Notes under the pieces: model-generated
Databases searched by the model: none
What the model was told of the DNA's origin: nothing
The model's input: the letters and a program-made list of their open reading frames with translations, nothing else
Program-made: the position numbers and the translations under genes
DNA from: an uncultured Flavobacteriaceae bacterium
Lineage (GTDB): Bacteria; Bacteroidota; Bacteroidia; Flavobacteriales; Flavobacteriaceae
Length of the DNA stretch: 64,000 nucleotides
Assembly (NCBI GenBank): GCA_947502635.1
Contig: CANNAN010000009.1
Location: 1-64,000, forward strand
Direction: 5' to 3'
In this document: positions 19,241 to 36,500 of the stretch, one piece after another
Position numbering within the stretch: the stretch's first letter is position 1
How the letters are laid out: each line of letters opens with the position of its first letter

Positions 19241-21415
19241 TTGAATTCAAAATTTAAGTATAAAATATTATTAGCATTAATAGCCGTTGTAGTTACAAAG
19301 GAATCTTATGCCCAATTAGGAGGTTGCTCTGGGAATTCTGGCGACCCAATATTTATAGAAGATTTTGGTACTGCACCAAGTTCAGCTACTCAACATGTCT
19401 CTTTACCAATACCTGGATCTACTACTTATGCTTTTTTAGGCAACCCTCCAACAGTATTTGCAGATAGTTTATATACGGTATCTAATATGAACTATCAACA
19501 ATGGAATTGGTTTAATGAAGAAGACCATACAGAAGGAGATTCAAATGGTAGAATGTTAGTCGTTAATGCAAGCTTTACTCCAGGAGAATTTTACAGGCTG
19601 CCCGTTTCTGGACTATGTGAAAATACGACCTACACATTTTCTTCCTGGGTTAAGAATTTAACCCCTAGAAATTTATTAGTTGGAGGTAGCACCCCAAACC
19701 CGTGTAATGTTAGATTTGAAATTTGGAATAGTGCTGACACAACTATACTTCGCTCTGAAAGTACAGGCGATTTTTTTGGAGCATTAAGTTCGGAAAATGG
19801 TGAATGGCTTGAATTTGCTTTTTCCTTTCAAACAGGTGTTGGCGAGAATTCAGTAATATTAAAAATGGTAAATAATGGTATTGGCGGTTATGGTAATGAT
19901 ATAGCTATAGACGATATCGTTTTTCAAAGTTGTGGTGATCGTATTACTGTAGAAGATACTTCAAATAATAATAGTGTCAATGTATGCAGTAGTCAGACTC
20001 CCTACACAACTGTTTTAACTGCTATTCCAGACAATACAGTTTTTAGCTCACATTTTTACCAATGGCAAGAAAGCACCGATGGCACTGTTTGGACCGATCT
20101 CTCTGCACAAACGAATCCAACCTTATCAGTAACAGGAATTAGCACGACAACTTATTATAGATCGAAAGTTGCCGAATCTGCTATTAATGTAAATAACGCA
20201 TCGTGCAATACTGTTTCAGATGTTTTTGAAATTAATATTACTCAGGCTCCTGTACAACCTTTTACTGAATGCTGGGAAACTGCAACGTTTAGTGATACAA
20301 CTTGTTCATGGAGTATTACTGGAACACAACCTCCTCAACCATCTTTAGAGTGTTGGCAAACGACAACATTTAACACAAGTACTTGCGTTTGGGATACTAC
20401 AGGAACTCAAGACCCAATGCCAACTGGATTAGAATGCTGGGAAACCGCAACATTTAATAATACGACTTGTATTTGGAGTGTTACAGGAACACAACCTCCT
20501 CAACCATCTTTAGAGTGTTGGCAAACGACAACATTTAACACAAGTACTTGCGTTTGGGATATTACAGGAACTCAAGACCCAATGCCAACTGGATTAGAGT
20601 GTTGGGAAGCCGCAACATTTAATAATACGACTTGTATTTGGAGTGTTACAGGAACTCAAGATCCAATGCCAACTGGATTAGAATGTTGGGAAACCGCAAC
20701 GTTTAGTGAAGTAACTTGTTTATGGAGTATTACTGGAAACAGACCTGGACAGGTATTTAATGAAGAAATTACTTTTTGCAGTGGAGATACACCACCGCCT
20801 TTAAGAGCTAATACTAATATTCCAGACCCTATATATCTATGGAATACAGGAGCTGTATCTGATGTTATAACTATACCAATTTCAGGGAGGTACTCGGTTG
20901 AAATAAGCAGCTCAACTAGCTGTATTTTTGAAACAAGGAACTTTAATGTCATAGAAATAGAAGCCCCTGTTATAGAAAGTGTTATTTCTGATGGAAATAA
21001 TATTATAATTACCACAACAAACTCTGGTGACTTTTTATATTCTTTAGATGGAAATATATTTCAATCAAGTAATGTATTTAAAGGTATTCCTGGAGGTCAA
21101 TATAGAATAGCAGTTAGAGGAAGGAATTGTGATGATACAGTATTTACAACTCATTTACATTTTTATATTCCTAAATTTTTCACACCTAATAATGATGGCT
21201 ATCACGACACATTTCATTTAGGAGGAATAGAATACTTTAACAGCTCCCAAGTTTCTATTTTTGATAGATACGGTAAATTATTGAAAAGCACTGTAAACTC
21301 CTCTTTTTCATGGGATGGTACATTTAACAATCAACGACTTCCAACAGCAGATTATTGGTATGTTATTATTGTAGACAACCAAAAATTTACAGGACATTTT
21401 ACTTTGAAAAGATAA
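19241..21415 (+). CDS. T9SS type B sorting-domain protein with cysteine-rich tandem repeats
   Basis: This 724-residue secreted protein has a signal peptide (YKILLALIAVVVTKESYA). An N-terminal jelly-roll-like domain (FIEDFGTAPSS ... IAIDDIVFQSCG, residues ~30-230) and an Ig-like domain (FYQWQESTDGTVWTDLS) follow. Then come six tandem 27-28-residue repeats of the form ECWETATFNNTTCIWSVTG, with two Cys and two Trp each, from residue 343 to about 505. The C-terminus (FFTPNNDGYHDTF ... GHFTLKR) is a type B sorting domain. A TTG at 19241 is the only sensible start: an in-frame TAG lies at 19217 and there is no ATG between. Surface display and binding are inferred. Confidence 0.85.
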   Translation: MNSKFKYKILLALIAVVVTKESYAQLGGCSGNSGDPIFIEDFGTAPSSATQHVSLPIPGSTTYAFLGNPPTVFADSLYTVSNMNYQQWNWFNEEDHTEGDSNGRMLVVNASFTPGEFYRLPVSGLCENTTYTFSSWVKNLTPRNLLVGGSTPNPCNVRFEIWNSADTTILRSESTGDFFGALSSENGEWLEFAFSFQTGVGENSVILKMVNNGIGGYGNDIAIDDIVFQSCGDRITVEDTSNNNSVNVCSSQTPYTTVLTAIPDNTVFSSHFYQWQESTDGTVWTDLSAQTNPTLSVTGISTTTYYRSKVAESAINVNNASCNTVSDVFEINITQAPVQPFTECWETATFSDTTCSWSITGTQPPQPSLECWQTTTFNTSTCVWDTTGTQDPMPTGLECWETATFNNTTCIWSVTGTQPPQPSLECWQTTTFNTSTCVWDITGTQDPMPTGLECWEAATFNNTTCIWSVTGTQDPMPTGLECWETATFSEVTCLWSITGNRPGQVFNEEITFCSGDTPPPLRANTNIPDPIYLWNTGAVSDVITIPISGRYSVEISSSTSCIFETRNFNVIEIEAPVIESVISDGNNIIITTTNSGDFLYSLDGNIFQSSNVFKGIPGGQYRIAVRGRNCDDTVFTTHLHFYIPKFFTPNNDGYHDTFHLGGIEYFNSSQVSIFDRYGKLLKSTVNSSFSWDGTFNNQRLPTADYWYVIIVDNQKFTGHFTLKR
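20267..20749 (+). repeat. Coding tandem repeat, six 81/84-bp units with 165-bp higher-order period
   Basis: Six units start with GA(A/G)TG(C/T)TGG at 20267, 20348, 20432, 20513, 20597 and 20681. Units 2+3 (20348) and 4+5 (20513) are almost identical over about 150 bases, so a 165-base doublet was duplicated recently. Slippage or recombination could change copy number without shifting the frame. Confidence 0.85.
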
Positions 21416-21571: not shown

Positions 21572-22948
21572 TTACTGATGATCAATTATATATTGTTGAA
21601 ATTCAGAAGAATTATACATACCATTAGCATCATGCCCTACATTATTAACAATGATTTTTTCGTGATTGTTTGTTCCTCCATAAAAAGTTTGCATATACAG
21701 AAATAAATTTTCACCTCGTTTTACTCGGTTTGAACCCAATAACGTTGCCTGACAATCTGATGTGTTCAATGAACCTGTAGTAGATGTATCATTGCTGCCT
21801 AAAAAATAGGTCGTACTTCTGGTTATTTGCTGCTCTGTAATTATAGACTGTTCTATTCCATCTAGATATGGTACTGAAAGTTGATATCCATAAGGCCAAA
21901 AATCATATCCAGAACAACCAGAAGGTGTTATAAATTGTTGTGTATTTTCATCATACCTAACGCCATCAGGATAATAGAAATATTGATTATTAGCAATGCC
22001 ATACTCAAAATTAACATTAGTATGTATGTTTTCGACTTTATTAGCTAAAGCATAATGTTGTACGAATGCTCCTCCAGAAGAGTGTCCTGTAACAAATATG
22101 GTCGATAAATTCGGGAAATTACCCGAACTAACAACCTTTTCAATAATGGCATCTATAACTGTAAAGGAACTTATAGAAGCATTCGTATTACCTGAATCTG
22201 CACCTTCTCTCCAGCGGCTATCCCAATATAGGTCGTCTGCACTTGCGTTTTGGGTATCTTTAAAATAAGGAGAAATAAGTAAGGAGCTTCCTTCCATGTT
22301 TATACTTTGCAATAAAGTAGTCATATATGAAAAATAGTCGTTTGCATTTCTTTGTAAACCATGAACAACAATAACTAATTGATTTATTGAATTGTATGTA
22401 AATTCTGTGTCATCAATAAAATCATAATTACTATACATATCGAAATTGAATTGAGCCCCAGAATCATTAGGCATCTGTAAAGTTTGTATGCAAGCATTTG
22501 TAGCGCTTAGGCAAGGTGTTTTTCCAAAATTAGTGACATATGATAATGATATCCCATCATTGAAAGACTCTCCTTTTGGGCCTAAATCCCCTACCGATAT
22601 TGATAAATTATATGTTTCATTAGCCTCCATTTGAGCAAGAACTATAGTTGCTTTTGAAGAAACATTTGAATACGACACCGTATAGGCAAACTCTGAAGAT
22701 CCTGCTGTTATTGAAAGTAAGTTTTCAAATTTAGAGGGCACAATTTCTGACGAAAATGCAACTTCAATAACGGAACTTACAGGAATATTTGATGCTCCAT
22801 CCTCTAAAGGAGAACCGTTTGCTGTGATAGATAAGATTGATACTGATAATAAATCATTGTCATTATCATTACAGCCAACCAAGAAGGCTAAACACAAAAT
22901 CATTGAAAACACACTAATCTTTTTTGAAATTTTTCTAGTTGTATTCAT
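21572..22948 (-). CDS. Ig-like (Big_5) lipoprotein with alpha/beta-hydrolase domain
   Basis: A lipoprotein signal ends at Cys26 (LAFLVGC). Residues ~35-145 form a Big_5-like Ig domain related to that of the next gene upstream. The rest is an alpha/beta hydrolase: VVHGLQRNANDYFSYM near the oxyanion region, and the nucleophile elbow GHSSGG with Ser290. The C-terminal HD pair (NNVGHDANGMY) supplies a likely catalytic His. It is probably a surface or periplasmic esterase or lipase-like enzyme; the substrate is unknown. It is the last gene of the six-gene SusC/SusD unit, 53 bases after the preceding gene. Confidence 0.72.
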   Translation of the reverse strand: MNTTRKISKKISVFSMILCLAFLVGCNDNDNDLLSVSILSITANGSPLEDGASNIPVSSVIEVAFSSEIVPSKFENLLSITAGSSEFAYTVSYSNVSSKATIVLAQMEANETYNLSISVGDLGPKGESFNDGISLSYVTNFGKTPCLSATNACIQTLQMPNDSGAQFNFDMYSNYDFIDDTEFTYNSINQLVIVVHGLQRNANDYFSYMTTLLQSINMEGSSLLISPYFKDTQNASADDLYWDSRWREGADSGNTNASISSFTVIDAIIEKVVSSGNFPNLSTIFVTGHSSGGAFVQHYALANKVENIHTNVNFEYGIANNQYFYYPDGVRYDENTQQFITPSGCSGYDFWPYGYQLSVPYLDGIEQSIITEQQITRSTTYFLGSNDTSTTGSLNTSDCQATLLGSNRVKRGENLFLYMQTFYGGTNNHEKIIVNNVGHDANGMYNSSEFQQYIIDHQ

Positions 22949-23001
22949 AAAACATTTTATTTTAAAATGTAACTATACGTTACAAATATTACTTAATTAT
23001 A

Positions 23002-24780
23002 TTAATTACAAGCAGGGTAGGTACATGACGAACTTTGTGTACTGGTTGACCCAGCTGCACAATCTAGACCACCTGTTACCCAATTGCCATTTAGTTTGTA
23101 AGCCCAGGAGCCCGCATATTCCCAACTTTCCCCAGTACCATCAACATTTACATCTCCATAGGTTTCAATAACCCCATTGCCCTCAAAAAGCTCTATAGCA
23201 TCATCACCATTTTGATTCATTGAACTTGTTTCAATGATATGTTCGAAGCTACTGATACACGATCCAAAATAACTAGCTATTGTTGCCTGCTCTCGTGCTA
23301 TAAGGATGTCATCTCCTTCAGAAACTGACATTACAGGAAAAGTGAATTCTATACCATCTGTTCCGCCTCCATTATTTGCAACACCTAACCCATAAATACT
23401 TAAATCTGCTATATCCTTTTGTGCTTTTAAATGCACTGCTTTACCACCATTATTCCCGCTACCATCCCATAGTATGGCCATAACGCCTTGAAGCGTTAAT
23501 GCTTGTGCACAAATTGGATAAACACAACTAGAACTTTGAGTGGTTGTTGACCCTATTGAACAGTCTACACCTCCATAGGTCCAAACGCCATCAAATTTAT
23601 ATGCCCAAGAACCTTTATATTCCCATACTTCTCCCGTTCCATCAACATCTGCATCACCATAAGTTTCAATAACAGTAGTTCCACTAAATAATTCAATAGC
23701 ATCATCTCCATTTTGACTAATAGATGTGTTTGCCTGCAATACATGTTCAATTTCGCTAGTACAACCTCCAAAATAGGTTGAAATTAATCCAGGTTCTCTA
23801 GCTACAAGAATATCATCGCCTTCAGAAACCGACATTACTGGAAATGTGTATTCTAAACCATCGGTTCCGCCTCCATTATTTGCAACACCTAACCCATAAA
23901 TACTTAAATCTGCTATATCTTGGTTTGCTATTAAATGAATTGCTTTACCATCATTACTTCCTGAACCATCCCAAGTTAAAGCTAATACCCCCTTCAAAGA
24001 TATTTTAGGTAATTGCTCATTAATTGTAATTATAAGCTCTTGTGATTCATGCGTAGCATTAACAACATTGCTTAAAGACAGGACTATTGTTTCATCGCCT
24101 TCATTTTCACCATCCAATATTGAGGTTAAAGAAATAGACGTTGATGTACTTCCTGCAGGTATCGTTATATTTAAATTTCCTGTAACACTGTAATCTAAAG
24201 TTTCAGAAGCCGTTCCACCTAATACTATGGTAGCAGTTATATCGCTTTCAGATATTTTATCCAGATTAGCGGTTATTGTTGCTGTGCCGTTATCCTCTTC
24301 TAATTCTGAAGCATCACTAGATAAGCTAAATACAGGTGGCACAAAAGGGGCCGTTGTAAAACTAAGTGATATTGGCTCTTCTAAAGATTTTCCTTCTAAA
24401 CCATAATCTCCAGCTGGTAATGTCAATGTATATAGAGTTTCATATTCTAATGACGTAGTTGGAGTTAAAGTAATTGTTGAGTTCGTATTTGAAAAACTTA
24501 TAGAATAATCTACTGTTCCCGACACTGAACTAAACACTAATGAAGATGAAAACAAGTCTGTATTTAAGGTGTGTGAAAAAATAATTTCTACTGTAGCATT
24601 CACATTAACATTTTCTATACCACTATTAAAGTCTAAACCATTAATCGTTTTTACCATTGCTATTAATGTATTATCAACAATAGCAGTATCATCATCGTCT
24701 TCACATCCTACAAATAATAAAGCAGAAAGAAATCCCAACGAGATAATAAAGTACATTGTAATTTTTTTAATATTTTTCAT
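23002..24780 (-). CDS. Lipoprotein with Big_5, Calx-beta-like and two lamin-tail-like domains
   Basis: A lipoprotein signal ends at Cys26 (LLFVGC). Residues ~38-145 form a Big_5-like Ig domain. Residues ~150-255 form a Calx-beta-like domain (FSLSSDASELEEDNGTATI, GDETIVLSLSNV). Then two copies (~165 residues each) follow of a lamin-tail-like domain with ISLKGVLALTWDGSG / LTLQGVMAILWDGSG, LSIYGLGVANNGGGTDG, SQNGDDAIELF and GSWAYK. No catalytic motif is seen, so a surface binding role (SusE/F-like position in the locus) is inferred. It follows the SLC13 gene by 46 bases. Confidence 0.7.
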   Translation of the reverse strand: MKNIKKITMYFIISLGFLSALLFVGCEDDDDTAIVDNTLIAMVKTINGLDFNSGIENVNVNATVEIIFSHTLNTDLFSSSLVFSSVSGTVDYSISFSNTNSTITLTPTTSLEYETLYTLTLPAGDYGLEGKSLEEPISLSFTTAPFVPPVFSLSSDASELEEDNGTATITANLDKISESDITATIVLGGTASETLDYSVTGNLNITIPAGSTSTSISLTSILDGENEGDETIVLSLSNVVNATHESQELIITINEQLPKISLKGVLALTWDGSGSNDGKAIHLIANQDIADLSIYGLGVANNGGGTDGLEYTFPVMSVSEGDDILVAREPGLISTYFGGCTSEIEHVLQANTSISQNGDDAIELFSGTTVIETYGDADVDGTGEVWEYKGSWAYKFDGVWTYGGVDCSIGSTTTQSSSCVYPICAQALTLQGVMAILWDGSGNNGGKAVHLKAQKDIADLSIYGLGVANNGGGTDGIEFTFPVMSVSEGDDILIAREQATIASYFGSCISSFEHIIETSSMNQNGDDAIELFEGNGVIETYGDVNVDGTGESWEYAGSWAYKLNGNWVTGGLDCAAGSTSTQSSSCTYPACN

Positions 24781-24826
24781 GATATGTTTAGTTTTTACGT
24801 TTTATTAAATATTTTTTTCTGTTAGT

Positions 24827-26308
24827 TTAAGGCTTTTCTAATTTTATAAATTCGGAAAAATCACTAGAATTAAAGCCCCAAATTATTGGCAACATATAAT
24901 ACACCATTATAGTTAAAAATATAATTGACACAATATTCATCCATATACCACTTTTAATCATGTCAGGTATTCTAAGGTATCCAGACCCAAAGACTACGGC
25001 ATTTGGAGGTGTTGCAACTGGCATCATAAAAGCACAAGATGCTGATACAGTACAAGCTATCATAAGAATATAAGGGTTAATATTTAGTGAAATAGCAATA
25101 GGGGCCAATATTGGCAGTAACATGGCTGTTGTTGCTAAATTTGAAGTAAATTCTGTAAAAAAATTGACTAACCCTACTATAATCAACACTAGAAAAACTA
25201 ACGAAAACCCCTGAAGCATAGACATTTGAGATCCCAACCATGATGCCAGCCCTGTAATTTGAAATCCTGCTGCAAGTGCCATACCTCCACCAAATAAAAG
25301 AATAATGCCCCAAGGTAATTTCACGGCATCTTCCCAAGTAATTATACGTTTTTTAATATCGCTAGTTGGAATAACAAATAGTAATACACCTGCTGTCATG
25401 GCTATTATAGTATCATCAATAAATGGGAAAAATTTCTGTAGAATAAATGAACGCGTAATCCAACAAAAAGCAGTTAAAACAAAAATTAATGAAACTATTT
25501 TTTCTTCTCTTTTCATAGGCCCAATATTCGCTACTAACCTATCTATCTCTTGTTTCCCTCCAGGAAATTCTTTCTGTTTAAATTTAAATGCAAATTTCGT
25601 TAAGTATAACCACGCTATACCTAATAGCGGAATGGCTATAGGCAACCCAAACTTTAGCCATTGCAGAAAGGTAATTTCTATATCGTAAACTTCTTCTACA
25701 TAACCAGCAAACACCAAATTAGGTGGTGTCCCTATAAGTGTTGCCATTCCTCCAATAGAAGCGCTATAAGCAATACTCAACATAAGTGCTTTTCCAAAAA
25801 GCAAATTTTCATCTTCTTCAGTTTCTGGATTGTCTTGTAATTGTGCTACAATAGACATACCAATAGGAAGCATCATTACAGCAGTAGCAGTATTTGATAT
25901 CCACATGGAAAGAAATGCCGTTGCTACCATAAAACCTAAAATGATTTTGGAAACATTAGTACCTATTATTTTAATAATATTTAATGCAATACGTTTATGC
26001 AAATTCCACTTTTCTATAGCAATAGCAAGCATGAAGCCACCCATATATAAAAAAATGTATTTATGCCCAAAAGAGGCCGTTGTGGTTTGCAAATCAACAG
26101 CTCCTGTCATTGGAAATAATATAATCGGTAAAAGCGCAGTTACAGCAATGGGTACTGCTTCTGTAACCCACCATAATGCCATCCACAATGTAATTGAAAG
26201 CAAATCGTATGCTTTATCTGGCATACCTGAAGGTGGATCTATATACTGTAAAATAATAAACAGTAGAGGGCCAGATATTAGAAATATACTTTTTTGAAAA
26301 GACTTCAT
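24827..26308 (-). CDS. SLC13/DASS family sodium-coupled anion (dicarboxylate-type) transporter
   Basis: This 493-residue polytopic inner-membrane protein has about 11-12 hydrophobic segments. The two family SNT motifs are visible: WISNTATAVMMLPIG and TEFTSNLATTAMLLPIL, each in a re-entrant Na+ and substrate site, along with GGMATLIGTPPNLVFAG and the C-terminal AFMMPVATPPNAVVFG. Members carry succinate, citrate, malate or sulfate with Na+. The substrate here is not determined, though the TPPN motifs favour the dicarboxylate branch. Its start overlaps the SGNH hydrolase stop by 4 bases, so the two are translationally coupled. Confidence 0.9.
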   Translation of the reverse strand: MKSFQKSIFLISGPLLFIILQYIDPPSGMPDKAYDLLSITLWMALWWVTEAVPIAVTALLPIILFPMTGAVDLQTTTASFGHKYIFLYMGGFMLAIAIEKWNLHKRIALNIIKIIGTNVSKIILGFMVATAFLSMWISNTATAVMMLPIGMSIVAQLQDNPETEEDENLLFGKALMLSIAYSASIGGMATLIGTPPNLVFAGYVEEVYDIEITFLQWLKFGLPIAIPLLGIAWLYLTKFAFKFKQKEFPGGKQEIDRLVANIGPMKREEKIVSLIFVLTAFCWITRSFILQKFFPFIDDTIIAMTAGVLLFVIPTSDIKKRIITWEDAVKLPWGIILLFGGGMALAAGFQITGLASWLGSQMSMLQGFSLVFLVLIIVGLVNFFTEFTSNLATTAMLLPILAPIAISLNINPYILMIACTVSASCAFMMPVATPPNAVVFGSGYLRIPDMIKSGIWMNIVSIIFLTIMVYYMLPIIWGFNSSDFSEFIKLEKP

Positions 26309-27102
26309 TCTTTTTCTTTATTAAAAGATTCAAAATTAGTTTCCTTTACTAGCTGTTTAAAAAATGATGCCGTTTCGGGCAATACAAAAGACAGATATAG
26401 TTTTTCACCATCCTTATCAAGCGTAGTTACTCTATTTGGAATTTTAGAGATTGATTTCCCTGTAAGGGCCTTATAAACAATTAATGCAATTAAATAACTG
26501 CCATCTGAGGATGGATGTTTATCATCGAAATAGAGGTTTAAATCTGGCCTTAAATTTCGAGCCTTCATCCAAATAGGACCAACAGGAATTACTTTAGCAT
26601 TCACTTTATGAGCTAACTCTAAATAAGCTTTTGTAATTGTAGGCTGCATTAAAGGGTTAGATTTATAAGCCCAAGTAACATAAAATATGGGTTCAGCACC
26701 TACCGAACGTATTAGTTCAGAGAACTTTTTACCATATTCTTCAAAGCGCTCAGGGGTATTTATAGTACTTAAACTATGATCACCAAGAATTACATAATCC
26801 CACTTACCCTCTTTAATGAGCTTTCGAGTTACTGTCCGTTTTCCTCCCTCCCAATGTTGTTTGAGGTTACTACCTCCAACTGTCGATTGATGAATCGACA
26901 AAGGAACACCTCGGTTTTCCCCCATAGCTTTTACCAATTGAGGCATGTTCCAAAAATAAGTAAAGCTATTACCAACAAATAAGACATTAACGGGCTCCTC
27001 TTCTTGTGAAAAGAGGCTGAAAGGCAATAGAAAAACTAAAGCAAACCCCAAAAGAAAAGTTTTTTTTATGTTTTTTACTTGTATCATGATTTTTAGCAAC
27101 AT
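26305..27102 (-). CDS. SGNH/GDSL-family hydrolase, exported
   Basis: After a signal peptide (FLLGFALVFLLPFSLFSQ), the domain begins NVLFVGNSFTYFWNMPQL, block I with nucleophile Ser46. TVGGSNLKQHW supplies a block-II Gly. VILGDHSL replaces the usual GxND. FDDKHPSSDGS (residues ~193-200) gives the catalytic Asp-x-x-His. Such enzymes are acetyl or other carboxyl esterases. It starts 1 base after the SusD stop and overlaps the transporter by 4 bases. An alternative start at 27087 (MIQVKN) gives a shorter leader. The substrate is unknown. Confidence 0.78.
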   Translation of the reverse strand: MLLKIMIQVKNIKKTFLLGFALVFLLPFSLFSQEEEPVNVLFVGNSFTYFWNMPQLVKAMGENRGVPLSIHQSTVGGSNLKQHWEGGKRTVTRKLIKEGKWDYVILGDHSLSTINTPERFEEYGKKFSELIRSVGAEPIFYVTWAYKSNPLMQPTITKAYLELAHKVNAKVIPVGPIWMKARNLRPDLNLYFDDKHPSSDGSYLIALIVYKALTGKSISKIPNRVTTLDKDGEKLYLSFVLPETASFFKQLVKETNFESFNKEKE

Positions 27103-27103
27103 A

Positions 27104-28507
27104 TTATTGATTTACAGGTGTTTTGCTGAAGAAATCTGGAATAGGGTTAGGAATATTACTATTTCTATCAATTTCTGATTGCGGGTAAATAAAACGTTGT
27201 GGTAAAAGATTACCATTATTGGGCACAATTGGAACTCTAACAATCGATTCGCTTTCAGTTCTCCTAGTATCGTTAAAAGATTCTATCTGCCCAAATAGGG
27301 TTATATAACGTTCTTGTAATATCTCCCTTAACAGTGCATTATCGGCGCTAATACCATCAAGGTTTTCAATACCTCCAGAGGCAAAATCGGCAGTATTATA
27401 CGCGTCATATAAAATATCTGAAACATTTACATTTGTTAAATACCCCCCAGTAGCCATAAATGCTCTAAAGTTATTTAAATGTGACAGGCCATTATCAAAC
27501 CCATTAACTCTAAAACCTGCTTCTGCTAAGATTAGAAGGTTTTCTTGGTAAGTAACTAAGGCTGCCAGTGCAGATGGCGCTGCATATCCGTTAGTTATAT
27601 TTGGTTGAACGCCTAAAGAGTTTGTTGTAAAATAGAAACTATTTCTACCACTTTCATTAGTTTTAGTATTCCCTCTATAAGTTGGACTGGTTGGATCCAT
27701 TAAACCAGCCATAAAACTTGAAACTATAAGATCACTTTGTCTAACTTCTACAGCAAAAAATTGATAATTTAAATTGAAATCTTCAGCAGCTGTACCGTGC
27801 GTGCCATTCATACTATTATTTGAAGAGCTAATCCCGTTTTGTGCTGCAATATATGCCTTTGGATAATCTTTAATATGCATGTAAAATCTTGCTTTTAAAG
27901 TATAAGCGCTTTCAATCCAAGCTTGAGGATTTCCATCAAAATAAATGTCAGCGCCAGTGGCTGGTCTTCCTGAGTCTTGTTGTAAATTTGAAATAGCTTT
28001 ATCTAATAACGTTTGTACTTTAGAGTAAATATCTACCTGATTATCAAACATTGGGTCTGAGAATTCCTCATTTACGGCCTCATCAAATGGAATATCTCCA
28101 TACAATGATGTTAGTGTACCAAAGGATTGAGCTTGTAATACTTGAGTAATACCAATTGTTACGGCTCCAGTATTTTCGCTTAATGCTGTTTGTTCTGTTA
28201 TTATAGCATTTCTTAATGCATCTACATAACCATCGTTCCATAGAGCATCAAAATCACTAGTAGTTACTGAGTATTGATCAAATCCTAGATGCTGTCTATC
28301 TATTCCTGTATATTGACCTGAAAAAATACAAGCTCTTCTTGCATTTTCTCCAGTTTGAAATAATATATTTCCAACTTCAGCTCCTGTTAAAATAGTTTGA
28401 TAAGCACTTTTAGTTTGGTTGTTCGGGTCATTATTTAGATCTTCAACTAAATCGCTACAAGATTGAGTGAGAATAACTATAAGAAATAATAAAACATATG
28501 ATTTCAT
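27104..28507 (-). CDS. SusD/RagB-like nutrient-binding lipoprotein
   Basis: The protein begins MKSYVLLFLIVILTQSC, a lipoprotein signal with Cys17, followed by SDLVEDLNNDPNN, typical of the SusD-like group 2 family. Helical TPR-like stretches include QAWIESAYTLKARFYMHIKDY and ALLREILQERYITLFGQIESFNDTRRTES. It should sit as a lid on the partner SusC and bind the substrate at the cell surface. The open frame extends to 28594, but the signal peptide starts at 28507, so I chose this (467 residues). It is directly downstream of susC. Confidence 0.88.
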   Translation of the reverse strand: MKSYVLLFLIVILTQSCSDLVEDLNNDPNNQTKSAYQTILTGAEVGNILFQTGENARRACIFSGQYTGIDRQHLGFDQYSVTTSDFDALWNDGYVDALRNAIITEQTALSENTGAVTIGITQVLQAQSFGTLTSLYGDIPFDEAVNEEFSDPMFDNQVDIYSKVQTLLDKAISNLQQDSGRPATGADIYFDGNPQAWIESAYTLKARFYMHIKDYPKAYIAAQNGISSSNNSMNGTHGTAAEDFNLNYQFFAVEVRQSDLIVSSFMAGLMDPTSPTYRGNTKTNESGRNSFYFTTNSLGVQPNITNGYAAPSALAALVTYQENLLILAEAGFRVNGFDNGLSHLNNFRAFMATGGYLTNVNVSDILYDAYNTADFASGGIENLDGISADNALLREILQERYITLFGQIESFNDTRRTESESIVRVPIVPNNGNLLPQRFIYPQSEIDRNSNIPNPIPDFFSKTPVNQ

Positions 28508-28610
28508 AATAAAATATTTTTTATGTGTGTAGTTATTTGAAGTTGTCTTATCTCCATTGGTGTTTACTAAAGAAAGTTGTGTTGACAATTTCATAATATT
28601 AATTTCTAGA

Positions 28611-31600
28611 TTATAAAGTTAATGTTGCGCTAAAAAGAAAAGACTTTGTACCAGGGTTATTAAAGTAATCTATCCCTCTTGCTGCACTAACTCCTGATAA
28701 ATTTGTGTCGGGATCATTGCCTTCAAACTTAGTCCATAAAAACAAATTTCTTCCTGTAACTGAAAATTCTACAGATTTTAATGACGTAGATTTTTTTAAC
28801 CAATCTGATTTCCATAAATAGGACAAAGTAAGTTCTCTTAATCTAGTCCAAGACCCATCTTCAATATATAACTCATCATTTCCGCCACCAAAAAATCCAC
28901 CATCTCCATTATACCAAGTCTCTGTTAAAGCCACAGGTCCTGCTCCAAAATCTGCTACATTACCACGAAACGTTTCACCAATATTTATAATATTACCATT
29001 AGATTGGAAGTAATTTCTAGTGGCTGTTACTTCATTACCCGTATCGTACCACGTTCCTAAATCTCTCATTACCGATTTGGTTCCCGCATATATATCGGCA
29101 CCTTGATAGGTTTCAAATAAAACGGACAATCTGAAATTTTTATATTTAAATGCACTAGCAATACCTCCTTGCCAATCTGGGTTTGGATCACCTATAACGC
29201 CTTCTAATTGATCTTGTTCAGGAAAGCCAAAAGCATCATAAACTATGGAACCATCATCGTTTCGGAGTGTTCTAGATCCCCATAACACACCTAAAGGGTG
29301 ACCTTCAACAGCTCTTGAACTGACTGCTGCCAAGCCTCCTAAGTTCAATGATTCTGCTCCTGCTAAATCAGTAACCTTATTCTTAACTTTTGTAAAGTTT
29401 GCATTAATAGACCAAGAAATATCATTCGTATTTAATATTTTATATCCTAAATCAAGTTCTAAGCCTTTGTTTTCTATTTCAGCTCCATTTGTATAAATAG
29501 AAGAGTAGCCTGTTGAATTTGCTACAGGAAACTCCAAAAGAACATCTTCCGTAACATTTTCAAAGTATGTAAAACCAACGGAGAGTTTATTCTTAAAAAA
29601 CCTTAAATCTGTTCCAATTTCAAATTCTTTTTTTCGTTCTGGTTTAAGTGATGCATTGCCTCTATTAGTGCTTGGTACAAATGCGCCGTTACCAAATAAC
29701 CCAGCGTTTAAACCACCTCCTAATGCATCGTTATAGGTAGGCGAAATAAAAATATTAGAGGTATTATAACGGGCTGGTTGTACTCCTACCTCGGCATAGG
29801 AAGCTCTAAGTTTACCAAATGATAAAAAATTATTGTCTTTAAAAATGTCTAATTCCGAGAATTGCCATGCTAAAGAGGTTGAAGGAAATAGGAATGGTTT
29901 ATCTGAATTTTCTCCAAATGCGGATGCATTTTCAATTCTAATAGTGCTATCAATATAAAACATATCAAAAACCGAAAAAGATAAAGAGGAATATAACCCT
30001 GCTGTTCGCTCTTGTCCAAATGTGCTATTTACTACAGTGTTTTCAATAAGCGTATTGTCTATATCACGTATCTCACTTGCTACGTCTATAAACTGAATAA
30101 AACCACTTCCTTCAACCCCATTTACTTTTCTTGATTTAGTATTATAGTTAAATCCTAATAAAAAACTACCATCAATAATATCATCTAAATTAAATGTGCT
30201 TTTGGCTATAAAATCTGTATTAAAAATGGTATTTGTTGCAGTAGATTGGTCTATAAACCCTGCTGTAAACACTCCAGAAGCAGAACCAGGTGTCATAAAT
30301 TCAGATTTAGTTTCACTATAATGATCTACACCAGCTCTTGCTATTAAAGTCAACCAGCTTTTTGGAGAGGTCATAAATTCAAAATTTGTAATAAAGCGAT
30401 CCACTTTTGCTTTATTTTCTTGTTCATTAATAGTCCAAAGCGGGTTGTTATAAGTAGCTGTTCCATCTGCCCCAAGAGGCTCTCTATAAGACCGATGTCT
30501 ATTAGGTATTGGAGAACTATCACTAGATGCGTAATAGTCTCCTCGGTAACCAGAAATATCAAAATCTGCTGGGTTTCTAAGCAAGCCTAAATAGAGTCCA
30601 GAAGAGTTAGCTCCTAATCTAATACGGTTTGATGATGTTCTTGTATAAGAAGAGCTTAATTTTAAACTAGTAACATCGGTAAAATTTTGTTTGCCATTGA
30701 ATCTAATAGTCGATCTCCTATAATCTGAATTATTTTTCACAATTCCTTTTTGGTTGAGATCACTTAAACTAAAAAACATGGTGCTTTTTGCTGTTCCCCC
30801 ACTCAAACTTAAATTGTTTTCTAAAAAATGACCATTACCAAAAACTTGGTCAAAATTAGAATCATTATATGTCGCTTGTGAATTTTTATTTAAGATAGGG
30901 TAATATATTCTTCCATCTTGATCTAAATAAAACCCTCCTGTGGTATCAAATTCATCATTTCCGCCAGAACGATCTGATATTAAATCCCCCCAAGAATCTC
31001 TTGCTCTTTGATTATAGATTCCGTTATCTCCTTGTCCATATTTTGTTTGTACATCATATCTTTGATTTATTTTATCTAAAGAATAAGTAGACTTCAAGCT
31101 TACAGATAATTTGCTGTTATATTTCCCGCTTTTTGTTGTAATGTTAATAACACCTCCTAAGGCTTGTGTTCCCCATAATGCAGCAGCAGCAGCTCCTTTT
31201 AATACTGTCATAGATTCTATGTCATTTGGGTTGATATCGTTAAGTCGTGACTCTTGGCTAACGCCACCTCTATCACTATTACCACGAACATCGTTACTTA
31301 TAGGAATTCCATCTACAATAATTAAAGGTTGACTATTTCTAGTTATAGAAGAAACTCCTCTAATTTGAATATACGATCCTGCCCCAGGATCACCCGAAGT
31401 TCTTGTTATTCGTACACCTGATGATTTACCTGACAGTGCATTTAAAACATTCGCTTCTCCCGATTTGGCAACCGCTTCTCCCTTTACAGTAGAACTAGCA
31501 TACCCTAAATTATCTTTTTTCTTTGTAAAGCCTAATGCGTTTACAATAACAGCATCTAAATTTTCAATATCTTCTACCATTACAATATCGATAATACTTT

Positions 31601-31859
31601 TTGAGCCAACTTCAACTGTTACCGTTTTAAAACCTATAAATCTAAAGCTTAAGCTAGGGTTTTCTGTTTCTAATGATATCGTATATATACCGTCAAAATC
31701 TGTTACAGCTCCATTAGCCACATTGTCTTCAATAATACTTACACCTACTAATGGTAAACCTTGTTCATCTGTAACAGTACCTTTAACAGTTTCCTGAGAC
31801 ATTATTATTTGAAATGAAAAGAGGAATAGAAAGAATAGTGTTTTTGTTATAAATTTCAT
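28611..31859 (-). CDS. SusC/RagA family TonB-linked outer-membrane transporter
   Basis: This 1082-residue protein has a signal peptide (FLFLFSFQIIMSQ), a carboxypeptidase-regulatory-like domain (VKGTVTDEQGLPLVGVSI, residues ~22-105) and a TonB plug (SGVRITRTSGDPGAGSYIQI, IIVDGIPISND, LKGAAAAALWG, GGVINITTKSG). The C-terminal beta-barrel ends SFLFSATLTL. It imports a substrate across the outer membrane using TonB energy. No N-terminal anti-sigma-interaction (STN) domain is visible, so control by a FecR-type pathway is unlikely. It is the first gene of the six-gene leftward unit. Confidence 0.93.
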   Translation of the reverse strand: MKFITKTLFFLFLFSFQIIMSQETVKGTVTDEQGLPLVGVSIIEDNVANGAVTDFDGIYTISLETENPSLSFRFIGFKTVTVEVGSKSIIDIVMVEDIENLDAVIVNALGFTKKKDNLGYASSTVKGEAVAKSGEANVLNALSGKSSGVRITRTSGDPGAGSYIQIRGVSSITRNSQPLIIVDGIPISNDVRGNSDRGGVSQESRLNDINPNDIESMTVLKGAAAAALWGTQALGGVINITTKSGKYNSKLSVSLKSTYSLDKINQRYDVQTKYGQGDNGIYNQRARDSWGDLISDRSGGNDEFDTTGGFYLDQDGRIYYPILNKNSQATYNDSNFDQVFGNGHFLENNLSLSGGTAKSTMFFSLSDLNQKGIVKNNSDYRRSTIRFNGKQNFTDVTSLKLSSSYTRTSSNRIRLGANSSGLYLGLLRNPADFDISGYRGDYYASSDSSPIPNRHRSYREPLGADGTATYNNPLWTINEQENKAKVDRFITNFEFMTSPKSWLTLIARAGVDHYSETKSEFMTPGSASGVFTAGFIDQSTATNTIFNTDFIAKSTFNLDDIIDGSFLLGFNYNTKSRKVNGVEGSGFIQFIDVASEIRDIDNTLIENTVVNSTFGQERTAGLYSSLSFSVFDMFYIDSTIRIENASAFGENSDKPFLFPSTSLAWQFSELDIFKDNNFLSFGKLRASYAEVGVQPARYNTSNIFISPTYNDALGGGLNAGLFGNGAFVPSTNRGNASLKPERKKEFEIGTDLRFFKNKLSVGFTYFENVTEDVLLEFPVANSTGYSSIYTNGAEIENKGLELDLGYKILNTNDISWSINANFTKVKNKVTDLAGAESLNLGGLAAVSSRAVEGHPLGVLWGSRTLRNDDGSIVYDAFGFPEQDQLEGVIGDPNPDWQGGIASAFKYKNFRLSVLFETYQGADIYAGTKSVMRDLGTWYDTGNEVTATRNYFQSNGNIINIGETFRGNVADFGAGPVALTETWYNGDGGFFGGGNDELYIEDGSWTRLRELTLSYLWKSDWLKKSTSLKSVEFSVTGRNLFLWTKFEGNDPDTNLSGVSAARGIDYFNNPGTKSFLFSATLTL

Positions 31860-32082
31860 CTTAAAATTGGTTTTAAAAGTTTAGTTTTACTATTTTAAGT
31901 ACGCTTTTGTCATTTATTGCGACATGATAAAATCGCATTTTTAATGGGTAATATTTATCAATTATAAAAAATATTATGATAATTATTGTTGTTTTATCAA
32001 ATTTTATTAAATTTTAATGAATTTTAATAAACATGCGGTATTTGACATTTGTAATTTTGTAGCATTTAATATTTGTTTTTAA
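31860..32082. promoter_or_regulatory. Divergent control region between susC and the membrane regulator-like gene
   Basis: This 223-base AT-rich region separates two divergent genes. It holds a dyad TGCGA (31918-31922) / TCGCA (31933-31937) near susC. It also has four consecutive 10-base units (31991-32030: GTTTTATCAA, ATTTTATTAA, ATTTTAATGA, ATTTTAATAA), phased with the DNA helix. These are candidate operator and curvature elements; binding is not shown. Confidence 0.45.
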
Positions 32083-33240
32083 ATGGATAATCAAAGAAAC
32101 ACGGAAGTTTTACATAAAAGTTTTATTTCTAAACTTATTAAGCGATATGGCACGTTTAATAACGTAAGGAATAAATTTGAATCTACAAGTAATTCTATAA
32201 TAGCAAGAGATTTGTTTTATAGTGATTCTCAGTTTTCAAGGTTAATTAATAATTCTGCATCTGAAGGGGAATTTAAAAGGGCTTTAGGTAATATTGAGCG
32301 ATTACTTGATTTGGATCAACTAAAGAAGAAAACTCCAAGTAATGTAAATAATGCTAAAAATAATATTGTCTTAAATCGTAAGTTTTTATTTCTAGCTGTA
32401 GGCATTCTTTTTTCATTAATTATTATATCATTCTTTTATTTCAAAAGATATGATTCTACCAAAATAGGTGAAGTTTTAAGTGATGATTCGAGATATGAAA
32501 TGTTAAAATGGGGCTTTGAAAATAAATTTATCCAGCCTTACGTAAAATTAAAAGAATTACCCGATGATTGTTATTACCCTTGTTATAAGTATCAAGGCAA
32601 ATGGAAACTAAAACAAGAATATAAGATTCCGTTTTATAGAGAAAGAAACGGTTTCCATTATGTAGCTAAAGAGGCTATTATGTATGCTAGGTGTATGGAT
32701 GAAAGAGATGATAAGGGTGAGTTTTTTGAAGGTTATGAGTATCAAAAACATGAACTTTGGTATGACAAAAGAGAGTTTCCAATAGATTCATTCCTGACTA
32801 ATGGTTCTAACACACAAATAAGAGATTTATATAATAATTCAAATTTAGAAGAAGATAGCAACTTCGTAAAAATAGCATATGTTCATACCTTTTTTAGAAC
32901 AGAATTTCAAATAGATAGTTCTTTAATATATCGCACAGGAAAAGCAATTGGTCGCGATATTGAATTTGTTTCTGATGAAATTTTAGATAGCCAATTAAAT
33001 GATCGCGTTTCCTTAATTGGACTTAAAGATGAAATCAAAGCTATCTCTGTTAATCGTTTAGAAGATTATTCTAAACCAATTTCATGCAACCCAACAATAG
33101 CTCCTAACATAAATTTTAATCTCATAGAAGAGGGAGATGAGATGAGTTTTAATTGTCATTTTAGTATTGACCGTTTTATTATTGATTATAATAAAACTTA
33201 TATTTTTGATGATCAGTACATTAATAATTACTGTAGATAA
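32083..33240 (+). CDS. Single-pass membrane protein, putative membrane-bound regulator of the SusC/SusD locus
   Basis: I do not recognise a named family. Residues 1-95 are cytosolic, basic and helical (KLIKRYGTFNNVRNKFE, then ARDLFYSDSQFSRLINNSAS and EGEFKRALGNIERLL), shaped like a DNA-binding helix-turn-helix region. Residues 101-120 form one membrane segment (FLFLAVGILFSLIIISFFYF). Residues ~125-385 would be periplasmic and contain a Cys pair (DDCYYPCYKY) and several aromatic-rich strands. It diverges from susC. By position and topology it could be a ToxR-like one-step sensor and regulator of the locus, which is inference only. Confidence 0.6.
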   Translation: MDNQRNTEVLHKSFISKLIKRYGTFNNVRNKFESTSNSIIARDLFYSDSQFSRLINNSASEGEFKRALGNIERLLDLDQLKKKTPSNVNNAKNNIVLNRKFLFLAVGILFSLIIISFFYFKRYDSTKIGEVLSDDSRYEMLKWGFENKFIQPYVKLKELPDDCYYPCYKYQGKWKLKQEYKIPFYRERNGFHYVAKEAIMYARCMDERDDKGEFFEGYEYQKHELWYDKREFPIDSFLTNGSNTQIRDLYNNSNLEEDSNFVKIAYVHTFFRTEFQIDSSLIYRTGKAIGRDIEFVSDEILDSQLNDRVSLIGLKDEIKAISVNRLEDYSKPISCNPTIAPNINFNLIEEGDEMSFNCHFSIDRFIIDYNKTYIFDDQYINNYCR

Positions 33241-33567: not shown

Positions 33568-36500
33568 TCATTTCTTAACAGTTACCCATTTCCCTTTGGT
33601 TCTTACTAAATACTCATTATCATACATCGCTTCTGCTTGAACACCTGGCAAATAATAAGTACCTAAATACGATGCGTTTAGCATGACATTAAATGTTTTG
33701 GTGCTCTGTCTTCCTTTACGTTGTAAATCGAAATAGAAATTAACACGATCATCTCTAATGTCTGTAAACCTAGCTTGACTGGTCGTTGTATTTCCAAAAT
33801 CTGTAAAACGGGTGTTTACAATTTCCCAACCTGAAGGAAATATTTGCGTTAATGCCACATCATTAACAGCTTCGTTTTTAAGATTACTAACTTTTACAGT
33901 AGCTACAAAATCCTGTCCTTGTGTTAATTCGGGGACATTAATAGTATTTCCTCTTAAATCTTTATATTGTATTGAAACACTCAATCCGCGTTGTTCTGCT
34001 AGTTCTTGACCTAATGGTAGTTTTCCAGAATTTAAAACACGGACATAAACAATATTATCTTTGTTATTAGTAAAAGATAATGCATTTTCTCCTTCGGCAA
34101 TCTTTAATTCGCGTTGCGCAATCGCACTTTTAGAATTTATGGTTTCTGTTTTTCCATTTACGGTATAGTTTACATTAAGCGCTTTTCCGCCATTAGCGTT
34201 TACCATTTTTGCAATAGCCAATAAACTATAAGCTGTTGTTTGGGTACTCATCCAGCGGTTACTCGATAAGTCTTTAGCAATATATTGAGATAATTCACGC
34301 CTTTTCGAATCTTTAGTAAGCACCATAGTTTCTAATGCCATAGCACGATTTCTATCTACCGAACCATAAGTATAATAATTGTATCGAATGGGTTTAAAAT
34401 TAATATTTGCTGATTTAGAAATAGATTCACTGGCCTCTTTTTGACCCGCTAATGCATACGCTGCTGCTAATCGCCATTTCGCTTCGTTCGATATTTCGCT
34501 AAATTCACGCAATCTATTCATGGCTGCTAAATCTGCTTGCCCTGCTAAAGCTAAGGTATACAATCTATAAGCCTGTGCTAAGTCGGAATTATACGACCTA
34601 TAACTTGGTCTCCAATCTCTTGCTGCTTGTTGTTGGTATTTAATCCAATTGTTCTTAAATGTAAGAGGTAAAACAAAACCTTTCTTTTCGGCTTCTAGCA
34701 TAAAATGACCCGCATAACTAGTACCCCAATCGTTGGCGTTATTTTCACCCATCCAATAGCTTAAACCACCATTTGGTCTTTGAAAATGGCCTAAACGTTT
34801 GATGCCGTTCTCAATATTATTCTTAATATTTTGCTTTTTATCGTGTGTTAAATCGAAAATATCATTTAAAAACAACTGCGGAAATACACTTGAGGTTGTT
34901 TGCTCTACACATCCATGTGGGTACTGAATTAAGTATTGCAATCTACGTGAAAAATCCATTGGAGGCATAGTAGAAAATTCCAAAGTAGCTGAATTTGTTC
35001 CATAAACTCCAAATGTTGAAAATGCTATAGACTCTGATGCATTTGCTTCTAAGATCTGATCTATTGGTTTCGATGTAATAGGGTTTGGGTTTATAACATC
35101 CAATTCTACTTTATAAGTTGATTTTTCACCATTCCCAGAGGCAATCACCTCGACAGTATTAAATCCTTTTGCTTTACTAACATCCAGTTCGAAATATGTC
35201 ATTCGTTCATCTGGATTCGCAAAGGTGAGTGTTTTTGATGTATCACCAACTATGGAAATCCCATTGCTAAGTTTCAAGCTAATGTTTACGTGCTTCACTT
35301 TGGGTTCCATAGCAAAAACAGTTACTGGAAGTGTTACTTTTTCTCCTGGGCTTAATTTCCGCGGAAGCGATGCTAACACCATTAAAGGCTTTTTAACTTC
35401 AACCGATTTGCTTGTACTTCCATAGGCTTCTGTCGTATTATTTCCTGCAACGACCATCGTTCTTACCGCGCCAATATAATTTGGTAGTTTTATTTTATGT
35501 GTTTTACGACCACCAGCTTCTATAGTAAAAGGGCCTAGATAAGTAACTACGGGCTTAAAACGATTTGCTTTTTTATTTTTTCCACCAGCACCGTCTGCAC
35601 TTCCATCACCACCTATAGCAAATACTTGATCTATACTGCCTGAATATGCACCAATAACATCATCAAAAACATCCCAGGTTTTTACACCTAAAGCTTCACG
35701 TGCGTAAAAAGAACTCCATGCATTTGGGGTTTTAAAACGTGTTAGATTTAACAAGCCCTCTTCTACCATAGCAATAGTGTAAGTCATCGCTTTTTTGTTT
35801 TTTTCTGAAACGGTGACTTCAAATTCTTGCTCGGGACGCAAGGTATTAGGCATTTTTAATTCGGGTTCTAATTTCGTATTTGGGTCTTCAACTAACATAG
35901 GGATGACTCCAAATAAGCGAATTGGTAAATCGTTAGCAGAAATAGCATGTGGTTGCAATAGTGAAATATTGATAAATACATTAGGTGCCATTTCGGAGGT
36001 AACAGGAATATCAACTACGGTTTCTCCTGGTTTTGTTTTTACCCATTTATAATCTAATACTTCTGTGCCGTTTTCAATACTGACTAATGCACGACCTTCG
36101 CTACCCGATTGAAAAGTTACTTTAGCAGTTTCTCCTACGTTATATTTTTCCTTGTCTGCCGAGAAAACAAGCATTTTCGCAGCTCCTTTATCACTGGAAG
36201 ATGAGTTTTGCCACCAATTTTTATAAAAATAAGCTGTTCTTCCTGTAGCATGACCACTTACAGGGTCTGTAATTCTTATAAGGTAACGACCGCGTTCCCC
36301 ATCTGGAATTTTTAAGTTTAGTGTTGCTTTTCCATTAGCATCGGTATTTATTTTAGAGTTTAAATAAGGCCTGTGATAGCTACTGGAAACATAACTAGAT
36401 AAATTATCGTAAGACGAATTCCACCACCAACGCCATTCAATTTTATAGACTTTAACCTCTAAGTTATTTCGTTTTATAGGGTTTCCTTTTGGATCTACTA

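Follow-up and report, generated by a model that had tools for sequence, protein, structure and literature searches.

A conserved SusCD-type cassette with a PahZ1-related hydrolase and a C4-dicarboxylate-type carrier, a candidate locus for uptake of an organic-acid polymer

We analyzed a leftward six-gene operon in a 64,000-nucleotide stretch of DNA from an uncultured Flavobacteriaceae bacterium (assembly GCA_947502635.1, contig CANNAN010000009.1, positions 1 to 64,000; hereafter, the window). The operon joins a SusC/SusD pair to an SGNH-type hydrolase, an SLC13 carrier, a repeat lipoprotein and a lipoprotein with an alpha/beta-hydrolase domain (hereafter, ABH), and a gene for a membrane protein diverges from it. 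SusCD loci are read as glycan loci almost by reflex. Our preferred reading, to which we give a probability of roughly 0.55, is that this one serves polymeric or oligomeric forms of a hydroxylated C4-dicarboxylic acid rather than a glycan, with beta-poly(malate) as the leading candidate. The computational results that bear on this reading are the gene content of the cassette, its conservation, the kinship of its hydrolase, the carboxylate type of its carrier and the repeated co-localization of its relatives with genes of C4-acid metabolism.

Gene content and conservation of the cassette

A map of the open reading frames (ORFs) of the window recovered all six genes on the minus strand between positions 21572 and 31859, and the tight spacing reported in a preliminary description of this DNA proved exact in positions and distances: from SusD through the SGNH hydrolase, the SLC13 carrier and the repeat lipoprotein to ABH, the successive junctions are a gap of 1 base, a 4-base overlap and gaps of 46 and 53 bases. 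The SusC–SusD gap, for which that description gave no figure, is 16 bases if the start of the 496-amino-acid SusD ORF is taken. The real start may be an internal methionine ~24–29 codons further downstream; many relatives have SusD proteins of 471–477 amino acids, and the nearest two (L032 and L033; L and G numbers are our labels for loci and genomes) have 496. The features are these:

28611..31859, minus strand: SusC/RagA TonB-linked outer-membrane transporter, 1082 amino acids (TIGR04056, 620.8 bits, over the cut-off)
27104..28594, minus strand: SusD-like lipoprotein (SusD-like_2; PF12771, 1.8e-29)
26305..27102, minus strand: SGNH-type hydrolase of the DUF4886 group with an N-terminal signal-like sequence (PF16227, 8.5e-10)
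24827..26308, minus strand: SLC13/DASS symporter, C4-dicarboxylate type by motif (PF00939, 4.1e-85; TIGR00785)
23002..24780, minus strand: repeat lipoprotein, 592 amino acids, with Big_5, a Calx-beta-like part and two repeat modules of ~165 amino acids (Big_5, 8.1e-12)
21572..22948, minus strand: ABH lipoprotein, Big_5 plus an alpha/beta-hydrolase of the PahZ1/LpqC group (fold and profile matches)
32083..33240, plus strand: divergent membrane protein, candidate regulator, 385 amino acids, no known family
32000..32026, no strand: three AATTTTA direct repeats with 10-base spacing between the SusC and regulator genes, candidate operator

The proposal that these genes form a coherent uptake locus is supported, and they recur together more than by chance. 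Counting as a cassette any locus that holds SusC, SusD, the SGNH hydrolase and the repeat lipoprotein together, we found it at 34 of 142 mapped loci, a figure that is not a frequency because all 142 were fetched by searching for cassette members. The 34 amount to 32 distinct loci, since two places appear twice, once in each of two collections (as L024/L035 and L026/L045), and they include near kin (L034/L036; L037/L040/L041; L047/L048); L029-L031 were mapped as well and lie outside the 142. The SLC13 gene is present at 31 of the 34, and the remaining three (L054, L056, L060) stop at a contig edge. The hydrolase slot holds ABH at 28 loci, a PahZ1 homologue at three (L028, L033, L050) and a third kind of alpha/beta-hydrolase at one (L059), while two loci (L054, L060) end before it. 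By gene map, the insertions are extra copies of the repeat protein (L053, L059, L077), a Cache chemoreceptor (L047/L048) and the L059 hydrolase; the SusC of L040 is spread over two ORFs.

The preliminary description had offered a search of Flavobacteriaceae genomes for this gene set as a check, and among 299 genomes of the family the cassette turned up in six: G000 (the window's genome), G270, G143, G223, G174 and G067. A search of the 299 with the ABH protein gave any match in 14, the window's own genome included; eight of the 13 others were fetched, and three of these (L029-L031) lack the cassette. The repeat lipoprotein also served as query against a collection of genomes at species level, where the best 80 of 421 relatives made up 77 loci. 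Among the matches listed, hosts of the cassette are Flavivirga, Polaribacter, Flagellimonas/Muricauda, Gramella, Robertkochia and Psychroflexus, with Marinoscillum, Marivirga, Mangrovivirga and Saprospiraceae bins as further hosts; Robertkochia marina, Flagellimonas pelagia and Psychroflexus aurantiacus are cultured species that carry it.

The gene for the divergent membrane protein accompanies 29 of the 34 cassettes; L027, L053, L059 and L077 break off at that point, and L060 has none recognizable. The six genes and this divergent gene are a real, conserved unit. The protein matched no Pfam or NCBIfam family over cut-off, and its structural model (pLDDT 80) matched no PDB fold at E < 0.001. 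We read the sequence and the model as suggesting a helix-turn-helix-like region at the N terminus, a single membrane-spanning helix and, on the outside, a conserved beta-rich domain; the protein is likely a sensor-regulator of the cassette, and possibly represents a new one-component sensor family. When the 223-base gap was shuffled 5000 times by mononucleotide, no shuffle contained such an AATTTTA triple, a weak test given that the pattern was picked after it had been seen; relatives have a similar AT-rich repeated motif.

The operon has the adjacent susC and susD homologues by which a polysaccharide utilization locus (PUL) is recognized (TIGR04056 and PF12771 on neighboring ORFs). As the preliminary description had said, no glycoside hydrolase goes with them: profile scans found neither glycoside hydrolase nor polysaccharide lyase in the operon or among 10 flanking ORFs of the window. 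The proposed locus type would have been contradicted if its homologues invariably came with glycoside hydrolases. Such a pattern did not emerge: neither these enzymes nor lyases turned up among the scanned genes that are inserted in the 34 relative cassettes, a scan that did not extend to most flanks of the relatives or to the large repeat proteins of L053, L059 and L077.

Kinship of the hydrolase, type of the carrier and neighboring genes

ABH matched no Pfam enzyme family over cut-off, and a PDB search with the single sequence gave a best E of 0.99, to PahZ1. With a profile of the ABH family, the PDB matches were LpqC and two PahZ1 structures at E values of 3.7e-9 to 1.3e-6, with one more row at 0.081. 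The predicted structure (pLDDT 87.7) returned in Foldseek, as its top five PDB chains, PahZ1 of KT-1, LpqC and PahZ1 of KP-2 (E of 3.5e-13 to 5.2e-12), and profile–profile comparison with the PahZ1-like family gave 99.5% probability and an E of 3.8e-22. By profile and by fold, ABH matches this group better than it matches other alpha/beta hydrolases, and it is a distant relative of PahZ1 in the PahZ1/LpqC group. Ser290 and both arginines of an RxxR element (Arg408 and Arg411) are invariant in 24 of 24 ABH sequences, and His439 is kept in 23, the other having a gap; in 18 of 18 PahZ1-like sequences the residues matching these sites and Arg200 are likewise invariant. At L028 (G174) a PahZ1-like gene (1.8e-51 to PahZ1) takes the place of ABH, and at L033 (Polaribacter irgensii) a PahZ1-type domain is carried by a Big_5 scaffold that closely resembles the one in the window.

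The same comparisons bear on two other substrates. A depolymerase locus for polyhydroxybutyrate (PHB) or another monocarboxylic polyester would fit the weak kinship of ABH and of the L028 gene with type 1 short-chain polyhydroxyalkanoate depolymerases (e_dPHAscl_type1, NF050058; 19.1 bits and 0.0007 for ABH, 27.3 bits and 2.4e-6 for L028), and the deposited LpqC structure is labelled a putative PHB depolymerase. Both scores are far under the curated cut-off of 150 bits, however, and the tartrate/D-malate dehydrogenase gene next to one cassette (L077, below) does not suit such a locus. 3-Hydroxybutyrate, moreover, is a monocarboxylate and not the expected cargo of a DASS C4 carrier, and we consider a PHB locus very improbable. 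A siderophore-ester system, in which SusC would import an iron chelate, the hydrolases open its esters and the carrier recover the acid, would account for the fold matches that come right after PahZ1 and LpqC, which are the fungal siderophore esterases EstB and EstA, with PfeE lower down. But these matches start at 2.9e-9, about three orders of magnitude or more weaker than those to PahZ1 and LpqC, the cassette has no iron gene, and gluconeogenic neighbors are unsuited to such a system, to which we give scarcely any credence.

The carrier scores 332.6 bits against TIGR00785 (cut-off, 198.6), and its best PDB matches are NaDC1, NaDC3 and NaCT, with NaS1 next. Its motifs are SNTAT, GTPPN, SNLAT and VATPPNAVVF, so that both SNT-type motifs are present, and the L5 site is occupied by proline in the window's protein and throughout the 74 aligned SLC13 proteins (GTPPN in 72, GTPTN in 2). 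According to the cited part of one report, the L5 residue is Ser260 in NaS1, Pro201 in VcINDY and Ala241 in NaDC1 (PMC10980263), and the cited part of another describes bacterial DASS proteins as transporting C4-dicarboxylates and not citrate or sulfate (PMC5413979). Judged by its motifs and the L5 proline, the protein is a carboxylate-type carrier (with VcINDY-like C4-dicarboxylate motifs) and not a sulfate-type one, as the preliminary description had surmised.

When cassette membership is placed on a tree of 74 SLC13 proteins, the label has to change 7 times (at least 4 of the changes forced by starred branches) versus 23.5 times with shuffled labels. The tree left out fragments shorter than 440 amino acids (L053, L077 and L085 among them), and its long branches L208, L228 and L084, none of them a cassette row, are uncertain. 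The place of the SLC13 gene also varies by branch, from the middle of the cassette (window type) to its 5′ end (L055, L061, L053, L077) or 3′ end (L027, L057). Because of these label changes and the differing gene positions, repeated recruitment of C4 carriers to the cassette is suggested as the simplest reading, without amounting to proof.

The genes beside the cassette in relatives fit an acid entering gluconeogenesis, not a sugar, in keeping with the acid uptake proposed earlier. ATP-type phosphoenolpyruvate carboxykinase (PEPCK) lies at most two genes from 7 of the 34 cassettes: upstream and tail to tail with the regulator at L037, L040, L042 and L046, and downstream at L047, L048 and, with one gene between, L032. 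At L046, fructose-1,6-bisphosphatase follows ABH after 9 bases, and at L077 a gene of the tartrate dehydrogenase family follows it after 44 bases (TIGR02089, 536.7 bits versus a cut-off of 470.4; PDB 3flk), a family that also takes in D-malate dehydrogenases. We examined SLC13 genes outside the cassette in 20 regions from the top of the E-value list, which are not a random sample; some of these genes stand next to tartrate dehydrogenase (L192, L201) or glycerate kinase (L193, L202), or with one gene between, and PEPCK is also beside or near such genes (L201, L202). A tartrate/D-malate dehydrogenase in the window's genome (G000, C8:148893-149930; 476.8 bits, just over cut-off) was not used as evidence because its neighbors look, on a reading of the sequence, like a different acid-sugar pathway.

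One label of the preliminary description was not confirmed. The lamin-tail domain that it had assigned to the repeat lipoprotein (PF00932) gave no match at E <= 0.1, with Calx-beta below threshold, and PF00932 was likewise not reached in two large relatives of the repeat module (L068, L098), in which the module stands beside nuclease domains. An acidic stretch follows the lipobox cysteine (CEDDDD); such acidic runs suggest surface export, and our guess is that the lipoprotein might be a polyanion-binding surface protein. L068 and L098 stand for a group of loci whose secreted proteins of ~1450–1500 amino acids share the module; one of the two scanned is from the gammaproteobacterium Paraglaciecola.

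As to its surroundings in the window, the cassette stands, as though inserted, between two genes that are usually neighbors, those for PBP1C (16008-18359), whose transglycosylase is a cell-wall enzyme, and bacterial alpha-2-macroglobulin (33568-39141). A plus-strand gene at 19241-21415 encodes a T9SS-secreted protein with a CHU_C tail and repeated, nearly alike Trp/Cys-rich units. An Rfam scan of the window gave no match.

Candidate substrates and the proposed pathway

As the ester isostere of the PahZ1 substrate beta-poly(aspartate), beta-polymalate is our first candidate; on the sequences at hand we would rank it first and beta-poly(aspartate)-like material second. From the same material we infer the placement of the proteins at the surface and in the periplasm, the order of the steps and the regulation. 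In the pathway that we propose, the Big_5 repeat lipoprotein would bind the polyanion at the cell surface, and the PahZ1-like lipoprotein would cleave it into oligomers by means of a serine nucleophile. SusCD, energized through TonB, would take up the oligomers, and the SGNH enzyme would break them down to monomers in the periplasm. Malate or a similar C4 acid would then enter through the sodium-driven SLC13 symporter, and PEPCK would channel it into gluconeogenesis, with the divergent membrane protein acting as sensor-regulator. The lipoprotein and signal sequences support the earlier suggestion that cleavage takes place outside the cytoplasm.

A narrower version is that the cassette is a dedicated polymalate locus. 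It would then supply, so far as our searches go, the first genes for bacterial polymalate uptake, and polymalate would be the natural substrate of the PahZ1/LpqC group, the cleavage of poly(aspartate) being a side activity on an isosteric chain. We put this version forward tentatively, as possible rather than probable. If our reading is true, the cassette would extend SusCD nutrition to organic-acid polymers, provide candidate genes for the marine use of polymalate or a related polymer, and point to a natural substrate for PahZ1, an enzyme studied on synthetic, thermally made poly(aspartate). A short list of directly assayable proteins results.

Several observations weigh against polymalate. 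PahZ1 is an amide-cleaving enzyme for which we know of no activity on polymalate. Of the 24 ABH sequences, no more than 20 retain Arg200. The polymalate hydrolase of Comamonas is reported, in the cited part of its source, to be without serine-esterase activity (PMC9210645), so that the cassette enzyme would belong to another class. The cassette is rare, as the count of six family genomes indicates. No PEPCK or malate gene adjoins the window's own locus, and the two PEPCK genes of its genome lie on other contigs; the L077 dehydrogenase suits tartrate or D-malate and not L-malate. The label changes in the SLC13 tree, finally, could be losses as well as gains.

Further objections concern the SGNH hydrolase. 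It matches PDB 4s1p (4e-9), and its motifs are well kept, GNS (Ser46) in 37 of 38 sequences, with one gap, and D193 and H196 of D-x-x-H in 38 of 38. A protein 62% identical to it, however, is encoded in a sulfated-glycan locus of G236 (L220), among genes for GH88, sulfatases, SusCD and FecR, which makes the SGNH step the least secure part of the proposed pathway. We fetched 17 further SGNH regions, of which G236 alone exceeded 41% identity and most others were mapped without annotation. Many SGNH and alpha/beta hydrolases act as carbohydrate esterases, and the window's SGNH enzyme may strip acyl groups from glycans; the L059 hydrolase just passes the cut-off for the acetyl xylan esterase family AXE1 (23.6 bits versus 21), its PETase-like score of 25.4 bits being below the cut-off of 28. 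The cassette could accordingly be imagined to take acetyl or organic-acid substituents off an acylated polysaccharide, leaving the backbone to enzymes elsewhere, and to import the freed acid. Yet no glycoside hydrolase or lyase was found among 10 inserted or boundary genes or the 10 window neighbors scanned, ABH is nearest to PahZ1/LpqC and not to a carbohydrate esterase, and the adjoining genes are gluconeogenic rather than sugar genes; we think this account rather improbable. The preliminary description had said that a sulfate carrier, with the hydrolases acting as glycan deacetylases alongside distant enzymes, would overturn its proposal. The carrier part of this is contradicted by the non-sulfate motifs; the SGNH subfamily does occur once in a sulfated-glycan locus.

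SGNH genes also occur in two variant arrangements. L223 has SusC (41%), SusD (37%), gamma-glutamyltranspeptidase (profile-tested) and SGNH in this order, and L181 has a gamma-glutamyltranspeptidase-like gene (by sequence reading), SGNH and a PahZ1 homologue. The two variants suggest side-chain-linked acid polymers.

The remaining objection to polymalate comes from a second gene set and is the strongest argument for an amide-linked substrate. PahZ1 homologues occur in 38 of the 299 family genomes, G000 not among them, and from the best-ranked matches of this PahZ1-like search we fetched 20 regions, which belong to 19 of the 38 genomes. In 11 of the 20, a PahZ1 homologue and SLC13 share one cluster, and in nine the two genes are directly adjacent. 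DcuC is present in 9 of the 11 clusters, IadA in 8 and an M14 peptidase in 7, and most hold porins (Porin_O_P) and Calx-beta/lamin-tail proteins, names that were tested on L082. A GntR/aminotransferase regulator was profile-tested in L170 and L172 and has same-length neighbors elsewhere; no cyanophycinase was found in the clusters. PahZ1-type enzymes and C4 carriers thus travel together in this set (relatives L169-L176 and L182; reference L082:1-11135), which looks like a beta-aspartyl polymer pathway; as an independent pairing of the two, it also speaks for our preferred reading.

The cassette itself might by the same token serve an amide-linked polymer, either beta-poly(aspartate)-like material or an isoaspartyl-rich peptide, with its PahZ1-like enzyme keeping the known activity and yielding aspartate oligomers. 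In the cited part of its description, Pedobacter PahZ1 cuts the beta- and not the alpha-amide bonds of oligo-aspartate, requires three units, leaves beta-Asp dimers and cleaves the all-L trimer slowly (PMC4456602). Against an amide, IadA, DcuC and M14 were found at 0 of the 34 cassette loci within the stretch examined, a beta-aspartyl-peptidase gene in the window has no counterpart in 40 relative loci tested, and the SGNH step is left without a clear role. We also know of no DASS carriers for amino acids. We regard an amide-linked substrate as unlikely, if the most serious of the alternatives, and continue to prefer a polymer of a hydroxylated C4 acid. The ester-linked substrate of the preliminary description is supported in outline, but the bond may be an ester or an amide, since PahZ1 cleaves beta-amides.

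Two more specific candidates were rejected. For cyanophycin, the best TIGR02069 score in G000 is 26.4 bits versus a cut-off of 126.6, and no cyanophycinase exceeded the cut-off in G098, G140, G175 or G297, which carry the second gene set. Among 13 genomes searched, five had one over cut-off (G270, G283, G069, G049, G223), never in the fetched clusters; in G270 and G223, which carry the cassette, it lies on contigs other than the cassette's. The other candidate was poly(aspartate) degraded by way of the window's beta-aspartyl-peptidase/asparaginase, a lipoprotein-type PF01112 protein encoded at 39257-40324 on the minus strand, ~7 kb from SusC. We take this neighborhood to be chance because the gene (IaaA) is absent from those 40 relative loci.

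Comparison with known systems

We found no description of such a locus, or of a gene set for organic-acid polymer uptake, among the papers listed by our searches of the open-licence PMC literature, most of which gave the top of a longer list, subscription papers being outside the search. The window's locus shares with PULs the tandem susC/susD genes, the lipoproteins and, as we would expect from these, outer and periplasmic hydrolysis before inner-membrane import. It differs from them in having no glycoside hydrolase or lyase that we could find, a symporter of C4-dicarboxylate type, and a regulator of no known family rather than an HTCS or ECF/FecR system. The cassette works like a SusCD utilization locus but lacks the carbohydrate-active enzymes that define a polysaccharide locus.

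The beta-poly(malate) hydrolases of Comamonas acidovorans and Physarum would share the polymer with the cassette. In the cited part of PMC9210645, the enzyme from Comamonas is described as bound to the outer membrane, and both hydrolases are reported to be without serine-esterase activity. The cyanophycin utilization locus of strain L21-Spi-D4 and Flammeovirga pacifica likewise scavenges an aspartate-based polymer by means of a hydrolase and a transporter, but, as described in the cited part of PMC10206079, needs a cyanophycinase and an isoaspartyl dipeptidase, neither of which the cassette has.

ABH resembles PahZ1 of Sphingomonas KT-1 (6ve6) and Pedobacter KP-2 (9o7u) and LpqC (3d0k), with which it has in common the fold, the nucleophile region, the invariant RxxR element and the final histidine. 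The HGxxRN motif of PahZ1 and LpqC is mostly kept in the ABH family as well, whereas identity over the fold match is ~16–17% and the window's enzyme is built on a Big_5 lipoprotein.

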